DNA of 64,000 nucleotides. Source: Neoarius graeffei (taxonomy: Eukaryota; Chordata; Actinopteri; Siluriformes; Ariidae). Every line of letters begins with the position of its first letter. Position 1 is the stretch's first letter. The notes beneath the pieces were generated by a model. It did not search any database. It had not been told where the DNA came from and was given only the letters and a program-made list of their open reading frames with translations. Positions 25,428 through 28,400 of this stretch are shown piece by piece. The position numbers were made by a program, and so were the translations under genes. The stretch covers positions 66,625,154 through 66,689,153 of the forward strand of contig NC_083575.1 in NCBI RefSeq assembly GCF_027579695.1. The letters run 5' to 3'.

Positions 25428-28400
25428 TCACGTTCTGATCAGAATAAAGGATATCATGTTCTCTTGCTGCATGTGAGTGAGAAGTTTCTCCAGTGGAGTG
25501 TACAGGCGCAGCGCAGGAGCTGAGCCCAGCATCAGCAGCTTATGTTTGGCTCTGGTGATGGCCACATTCAGCCTTCGCCAGTCTTTCAGCAGCTCTCCCA
25601 CACTGTAAAAAAAAATAGTTGAGAATACTTGAAATTTCAAGGCAACCGTCTGCATTAAGAATTTTATGTTTTGCCAACGATGTGCCCATGATAATCCAAA
25701 CTATGATAAAACTTATCTTTATTAAGAATTCTTAATTAAGTCAATTTTCAATTCCTCATTCTGCCAACATAGATTTCTCTTTTTGCTGAACAGTGGCATT
25801 CACAGTAGTGCAAAAAGGCAATTGAGGTTATCACAATTTTTTTTTTTAGATTTTTTTGGGGCTTTTTTCATCTCTATTTGGATAGGACAGCGTAGAGACA
25901 GGAAATGAGCGGGAGAGAGAGAGACGGGGAGGGATCGGGAAATGACCTCAGGTCGGAACCGAACCTGGGTCCCCGGATTTATGGTATGGCGCCTTATCCA
26001 CCTGAGCCACGACACCCCCGAGGTTATCACAATTTATCATTAAACTATACATGCCTTTTTTCATTGTTCTACACAATTACAAAACTTCAATGTTGAAATA
26101 AAGTTTTTAAAACCCACGTCGTGGTTGTGGCTCAGGTGGATAAGGCGCCATACCATAAATCCGGGGACCTGGGTTCGATTCCGACCCGAGGTCATTTCCC
26201 GATCCCTCCCTGTCCCTCTCTCCCGCTCATTTCCTGTCTCTACACTGTCCTATCCAAATAAAGGTGAAAAAAGCCCCCCCAAAAAGTCTGATAACCTCAA
26301 TTGCCTTTTTGTACTACTGTGAATGCCACTGTTCAGCAAAAAGAGAAATCTATGTTGGCAGAATGAGGAATTGAAAATTGACTTAATTAAGAATTCTTAA
26401 TAAAGATAACAGTTTTATCATAGTTTGGATTATCATGGGCACATCATTGGCAAAACATAAAATTCTTAATGCAGACTGTTGCCTTGAAATTTCAAGTATT
26501 CTCAACTATTCTTTTTTTTACAGTGCAGCTGACACACAGACAGGCAGGCAGAGAGAGAGAGACAGACAGACAGAAAAAAAAATCTGACTGGCACATTCAA
26601 CAAACATCAATAAAAATAATGTGGTACTGCAAAGGTGCTTAAAGGAGAACTGAAGGCAAATTTTTTTTAATCATCAAAATTCTCTCATTTTATTAAATAT
26701 AGGAATGCATTTTTGATAACTATTTTGTCACTGCTATAGCAAGTTATGAGTGAAATATGCTCTGTAATATCAGTCCATATGTCAAAGCAATGGCCGTAAA
26801 CAAGATTCATTGAGACCTGTGCGAGACATCGTAGGACGGAAGTAAAACGTACAGCGGAAATCAAAGTGACCAACATCTGCCAACGTGGTCAAAAGACGTG
26901 TGCGCACTCTTTCGAATGCTGATGTAATCAAGTTGTTTGTTTTGATAGCAATCAGGAAAGTTTGGAAAAAAAAAAAGTAGGCAGTAATCGTCATTTAAAC
27001 TCATTTTTGTGCAGTATTTCATTTGGAAGAACAGTTTCCAAAATGGCAGCACTGACACTTCACGTTTCGAAGTCTCGCACAAGTCTCGTCAAGATCGCAC
27101 AGATAAGCGACGCCTGCCGTGGACCAAATGAACTAAATTCAACATGGCTAGAAACCGAATAGGCTGAGAAGTATAATATTTAATTGCAATTAGTTGCCAA
27201 TACGAGTCATGATATAAGGTTACTAAAACTGAAAACATAATTGAATAACACTTTAATTAAGAAATAAAGCAAGTTTAATGACTTCAGTTCTCCTTTAAAG
27301 CCTTTACCTACTGTGTAGCATGACACATTACCACAAATAAGATCCAACATGTTTCTCTGTAATGAGTAGTTTTATTTTAACTTTACAACACTGAAGCAAT
27401 ACAGTGAAACGTAACTCCAGGTATTTGCATACTACAGATATGTTACATGAACTGCATAAGTCAGTCTTTCTTTTCTGAAACAGGATTGCTGTTCTCCTGT
27501 CTTAAAGGAAAACGTGCTGAAATTTGTCCATTGTCACTTGCCCAGACCAGCTTGAAAAATCTGAGTATACCTTTAACCCACTAACTTTATACTTCATTCA
27601 TTTTCCTTCTGGGAGCCGCACTGGAAACAGGCTGAGATGATGAGCCCAGACTTTATCCCAGCTATAGCTTCCACCTACTTCTGGGAGATTTCCAGATGTT
27701 CCCAAGCCAACTATGTGATATAGCCAAGAGACATCATCATAAGGTGCCCAAACATCAGCTGGCACCTCTCAATTCAGAGGAGCAACAGTTGGAACTGGAG
27801 AATCTTCTGGTTTTGTCCATATCACACAAACGAAGCTCAGCAATCATGCAGAGGAACCCATTTTCCACCGCTGATACTAGCAACCTTATTCTTTCAGTCA
27901 GTACACACAGCTTGTGACCACAGGATATAGACCGACCCAAAGATTACTGGTGTTAAATCAATATAATGTTAAATATGCAAACAAACAAATAAAAATTACT
28001 GCCCTTCAGGATCTCACAAACATGCTGACCCAAGCAAAATCTGAGTTTGACACCCATGTTGTATTGATATTGCAGTGGTTTAATTTGTCATCACCACAAA
28101 ATTAGAAGTATTACAGCTTAAAATGCTTTCTGTCAATATCATCTCAGGAAGACTGTATTGGGAGATTTTAACATATTTTGGCTTTCCCGTATCATCTCAT
28201 GCCTACTGGACACCTCTCAGGCCTTGACTGCAACTTGAATAATTAGAATAAATATTATAATAAAAATAAATGGAGGTAACTGTCTCCACTGGGAACTCGA
28301 GAGTCAGAGAGATACCATAGCCAACCAATAAGTTTGGTAGAACCCCTACTGTGTGATAATGTTGGCCTTACATTAACGAGTTCATACCTTTCCATCTCAC

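Follow-up and report, generated by a model that had tools for sequence, protein, structure and literature searches.

A dna2 copy of Neoarius graeffei lacking its 5' part and carrying a transposon, beside a near-complete copy on the same chromosome

As read from its sequence, the dna2 copy within the 64,000-nucleotide stretch of Neoarius graeffei DNA analysed here (the window) cannot encode a whole DNA2 protein, and a near-complete copy free of the insert lies on the same assembled chromosome. The window copy is probably the defective left member of a young segmental duplication. What appeared to be the loss of an essential replication gene would thereby become an ordinary story, that of a deleted, transposon-bearing copy beside a near-complete gene, and annotation based on the window copy by itself would be misleading. 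The two copies also form a clean filled and empty pair for a transposon family with splice-site-like ends.

Exon layout of dna2 in the window

The helicase part of dna2 lies on the minus strand of the window, where 13 exon stretches, a to m, were located together with their flanking sequence, and the joined translation of exons e to m matched mouse Dna2 (5EAX) over residues 1-422 of 426 with an E value of 3e-186. The gene is laid out as follows:

36006..56733, minus strand: exons a to j of dna2 in the window, coding from approximately residue 430 onwards
28977..29159, minus strand: exon k of dna2, from the region of helicase motif V; its donor is GTAAGT
26529..26560, minus strand: native acceptor CAG of exon l together with its pyrimidine tract; the exon starts at 26528; the second copy has the same acceptor directly before CTGGGAGAG
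25455..25600, minus strand: part of exon l 3' of the insertion, carrying motif VI; last but one exon (exon body 25598-25455)
24814..25454, minus strand: last dna2 intron, U12-type, with donor ATATCCTTT and a branch-like site TCCTTAAC at 24832-24825, ending in ACAG
24772..24813, minus strand: last dna2 exon, encoding LPAAAHEALPCIKM, then TGA

Exon k (29159-28977) ends at 28977 in phase 0 (GGCAAC|GTAAGT), and the native acceptor of exon l, CAG at 26531-26529, is followed by CTG and then by a 925-bp interruption, after which the exon resumes at 25600. The preliminary description had placed this acceptor on the far side of the inserted element and joined it with exon k in phase 0, an arrangement borne out by the second copy, in which the minus strand reads CAG|CTGGGAGAGCTG. 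Joining exon l at the 2-bp duplication gives a predicted junction peptide, which was compared with the counterpart stretch of mouse Dna2, and a junction pattern of this kind was matched by 119 of the 120 DNA2 relatives among the matches listed (120 of 537 over threshold), the 120th, from Aulostomus, reading ARELL at this position. The closest protein relatives among the matches listed were those of cyprinids and characins.

The interrupted exon had been taken for the last of dna2, a position ruled out by the U12-type donor that follows it and by the further exon at 24813-24772. This final exon, LPAAAHEALPCIKM, resembles the C-terminal ends of the carp and Sinocyclocheilus proteins. The exact 3' splice site of the last intron in this fish (AT-AG here) was placed by inference, because LP is preceded in many relatives by approximately three extra residues, such as IIQ or IFQ. 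The residues xxMISF were present in 57 of 120 vertebrate DNA2 proteins among the matches listed, many of which end soon afterwards; they may be read as run-through of the U12-type donor, and their frequency suggests that the C-terminus of DNA2 is widely mis-annotated. For DNA2, an intron of the U12 type has previously been recorded from U12DB, according to PMC10676203. Searches of window positions 24000-30000 with Rfam at gathering scores gave no matches, and a tRNA gene search of the window found none.

The second copy on the same chromosome

A 160-bp stretch of exon l occurs at two places in the 2.34-Gb assembly, both with 100% identity (160/160), one being in the window and the other at C7:66833243-66833402 on the same strand. 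The latter lies in a second dna2 copy, for which a search of the genome had been proposed, situated approximately 183 kb to the right of the window copy on the same assembled chromosome. At the insertion point this copy reads CTCTCCCAGCTGACA, an exact empty site with one CA. The two copies are collinear, with window positions 1-58130 aligned over 42,689 bp at 512 mismatches (1.2%), and the alignment is interrupted by private insertions on both sides. Those of the second copy measure 371, 360 and 1586 bp, and the window copy differs as follows:

3388-7817, 31089-32613, 33997-34925, 38690-39062, 43567-47312 and 48912-51045: stretches present only in the window copy relative to the second copy, several with target duplications
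58126..58130, no strand assigned: deletion junction, at which the window copy lacks approximately 37.4 kb of the second copy (C7:66857950-66895317), a stretch with the exons that encode residues 1 to about 430

When the Astyanax DNA2 protein (P0122) was compared with both copies by tblastn, the second copy was recovered as 19 pieces in order covering 1066 of 1108 residues, i.e. near-complete, and the window copy matched 630 residues, none of them among residues 1-429. The first piece of the second copy (residues 6-55) is 52% identical to P0122, and the piece for residues 56-172 contains two stops and 34 gap columns in the query, which may be read as a short intron. Pfam places the Dna2 and PD-(D/E)XK regions of P0122 at 98-309 and 153-429; the window copy is without a nuclease domain, since residues 1-429 are missing and these regions fall within 98-429. 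The 5' part (approximately 37.4 kb) is missing in place, because the alignment jumps at 58126-58130 from C7:66857949 to C7:66895318 and then continues collinearly, with further gaps, to the window end. Approximately 2 bp are common to both sides of the deletion join.

Across the 13 exon stretches, 8 of 1833 nt differ between the copies, where approximately 22 would be expected at 1.2%, and five amino-acid changes result. When these changes were polarised against up to 51 fish sequences, two looked derived in the window copy and one in the second, with no direction assigned to the remaining two. Of those called as derived in the window copy, f58 is E there and G in the second copy, with G in 41 of 46 fish, and the call for a30 is weak, as 36 of 51 fish have G and 12 of 51 have S and so share its residue; a25 looks derived in the second copy, with M in 48 of 51 fish. 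A tandem repeat at about 46579-46967, with a unit of about 34 bp (as judged from open-frame spacing) and open on the minus strand, lies inside a window-private stretch.

The inserted element and its family

25601..26525, no strand assigned: non-autonomous CACTG-ended DNA transposon of 925 bp, with long inverted arms (fold-back) and a SINE-like stretch in each arm
25599..25600, no strand assigned: target site duplication CA, left copy; the empty site in the second dna2 copy has a single CA
26526..26527, no strand assigned: target site duplication CA, right copy, completing the 2-bp target site duplication

The element, with ends CACTGTAA and TTACAGTG, lies 3 bp inside exon l and is present in the window copy only. 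Both its extent, given earlier as 925 bp from CACTG to CAGTG at 25601-26525, and the 2-bp CA duplication at its sides were confirmed, as the ends, inverted arms and family boundaries agree and the second copy shows one CA. The arms (about 400 bp) are identical in 380 of 417 alignment columns, with 3 differences among the outer 231 sites and 13 among the inner, SINE-bearing 167 sites. Although both arms contain the SINE-like stretch, only in one of them is it flanked by a 15-bp duplication (AATTGTGATAACCTC), which suggests that copying of the arm postdates insertion of the SINE. A SINE-like repeat also occurs at window positions 2924-3105, flanked by an 18-bp duplication. Folding of the transcript strand predicted a long hairpin of -701 kcal/mol for the element. 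The corresponding mean for 25 stretches of 925 nt drawn at random from the window, some of them possibly including parts of the element or of other inverted repeats, was -273 (sd 88, lowest -642). Pairing is expected for 228 of the 235 bases of the outer arm. Viral contigs searched with a 24-base stretch of the element gave no matches.

From 4934 first-look candidates in the same genome, 40 copies including that of the window were scored, the other 39 being 94-98% identical to the window element; the family size is at least 40 verified copies and may be up to thousands, the candidates at large being unscored. The CACTG...CAGTG ends are present in 39 of the 40, the remaining copy (L044) having an altered left end. 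Among these 39 canonical copies, 36 have a target site duplication of exactly 2 bp (TA 16, TG 11, CA 7, AG 1, CT 1), one has a duplication of 1 bp and two have none. The window element appears to be a young insertion, since only 9 of 924 sites are substituted relative to the family majority and three of these substitutions occur in no other of the 40 scored copies.

The element is presumably a non-autonomous member of the CACTA/EnSpm-like (CMC) superfamily. It shares with such fish transposons the CACTG terminal inverted repeats, the 2-bp target duplications and the many near-identical non-coding copies, and differs from them in its arms of approximately 400 bp that include a SINE-like stretch and in that no transposase is as yet linked to it. 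A literature search for CACTG or EnSpm elements in fish gave nothing useful among the papers listed. Comparison of the element with four private insertions gave no match, and the 4.43-kb insertion at 3388-7817, one of the four, was accordingly dismissed as a larger relative.

In both orientations, the ends of the family provide a donor-like GTAA on one side of a self-pairing body and an ACAG acceptor with a T-rich tract on the opposite side, and the splice-site-like ends CACTGTAA and TTACAGTG were found in 39 of 40 copies. As a mobile element with terminal repeats and splice-site-like ends (here GTAA and ACAG), the element resembles the Introners described in PMC9860276. However, arithmetic on the sequence indicates that splicing of the element at CACT|GT...AG|TG would leave 8 extra nt and shift the frame, and the same paper reports no sign of Introner gain in vertebrates. 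That the family might act in this fish as mobile acceptor traps or intron-like insertions, with the hairpin choosing the visible acceptor, is a speculative and rather improbable proposal; if true, such behaviour could be read directly in this genome, which holds both a filled and an empty dna2 copy.

Splicing at the interrupted exon and the origin of the two copies

25603..25614, minus strand: T-tract and ACAG acceptor supplied by the transposon, for an exon that starts at 25602 and, being out of frame, reaches a stop after 20 codons
25700, minus strand: exon start within the element, directly after acceptor ATAG|TTT; in frame, with motif VI kept and a weak tract
25649, minus strand: exon start within the element, directly after acceptor GCAG|ACG; in frame and open for 73 codons, with motif VI kept and a weak tract
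25592, minus strand: start within exon l, directly after acceptor GAGAG|CTG, which has G at -3; in frame, with LGE lost and motif VI kept if used

Two outcomes had been foreseen for the interrupted exon, a 20-codon tail from the transposon-borne acceptor and termination within the element from the native one, and both were recovered, the latter after 8 codons. The accompanying claim that motif VI is lost either way was too strong, as three of the 212 AG dinucleotides examined, those with exon starts at 25700, 25649 and 25592, give a phase-0 frame that stays open across motif VI, so that its loss is not a necessary outcome, though these acceptors are weak. Pyrimidines make up 41, 47 and 53%, respectively, of their positions -20 to -4, compared with 59-94% at seven other dna2 acceptors (c and f to k, with d and e left out and f placed 2 bases off), 65% at the U12-type acceptor, 71% at the native one and 76% at that of the transposon. 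Because all three in-frame acceptors look weak, motif VI would likely be lost from most transcripts, if the window copy is transcribed at all. In such transcripts, a stable hairpin would part the native acceptor from its exon, the transposon acceptor would shift the frame and the in-frame alternatives would be weak.

Rescue by another acceptor had been raised as one way in which the gene might survive. Under this explanation the window copy is still expressed, and splicing to 25649 or 25592, possibly promoted by the hairpin that conceals the transposon's own acceptor, yields a shortened protein that has only the helicase part but retains motif VI. The three in-frame acceptors do exist, the window exons are free of stops and frameshifts when compared with the second copy, and the out-of-frame transposon acceptor is predicted to be 98% paired (unpaired probability 0.02, compared with 0.49 for the native tract). 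However, the regions of the 25649 and 25700 acceptors lie in the same hairpin (unpaired probability 0.00 for the 25649 region), the tracts are weak, 25592 has G at -3, and the question is largely moot with the 5' exons missing. The 20-residue frameshifted tail occurred in none of the 172 proteins compared, and neither the 3-residue loss nor an insertion was seen in the 166 with measurable spacing. Rescue is considered very improbable. The same survey bears on the suggestion that an orthologous fish might carry the same insert, as none was seen. An assembly error at 25600 or 26526, such that the element is not really there, had also been considered; this is exceedingly improbable. Nothing was found in its favour, whereas the element ends coincide exactly with the boundaries of the family, its 2-bp duplication obeys the family rule and the second copy has the matching empty site, on which grounds an artefact at the junctions was excluded.

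Polymorphism or heterozygosity and decay of the locus had been offered alongside rescue, and decay fits best, given the absence of the 5' exons and the presence of the second copy. A young segmental duplication would have produced two collinear dna2 copies approximately 183 kb apart, and the left copy would then have been without approximately 37.4 kb, with the start, the nuclease domain and presumably the promoter gone, such that no working DNA2 could be made from it. Selection on this copy would have been relaxed and insertion of the element tolerated, transposition having presumably followed separation of the copies. The near-complete second copy nearby, and the 5' deletion and insertion in one copy, are as in a decaying tandem or segmental duplicate (duplicated pseudogene); the window copy differs in that its exons are otherwise nearly intact (8 of 1833 nt), and here both the duplication and the lack of a product are inferred from sequence. 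This near-intactness counts against decay, since fewer differences than expected imply either that the damage is recent or that the copies are alleles; a young duplication and a pair of retained haplotypes are both compatible with this, and the amino-acid changes show no clear pile-up in the window copy.

The heterozygous option corresponds to a false (heterotype) duplication, in which the copies are two haplotypes of one locus placed in tandem by the assembler, and the fish is heterozygous for a null dna2 allele with the 37.4-kb deletion and the transposon. The 1.2% substitutions over 42,689 bp are within what outbred fish can show between haplotypes, and the few exon differences also favour alleles. 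Two near-identical gene copies on one scaffold are likewise what false heterotype duplication produces in PMC9516828, which describes such duplications as common even in good assemblies and gives half depth and gaps between copies as their marks. No N was present in the 210 kb read to the right (the 99 kb at C7:66689154-66788243, between the copies, left out), and two independent disabling lesions fall in one copy; neither point is decisive. It is nevertheless because of these two points that duplication is, as a matter of judgement, given the greater weight, and the haplotype explanation is regarded as somewhat unlikely while still deserving consideration. Loss of DNA2 is embryonic lethal, as stated in PMC10676203, and the papers listed in a literature search for a fish DNA2 knock-out were reviews or on other topics.

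At the left end of the window, the exon at 92-262 on the plus strand matches Pfam PhzC-PhzF (E 1.8e-06) and presumably belongs to a pbld-like gene beside dna2.
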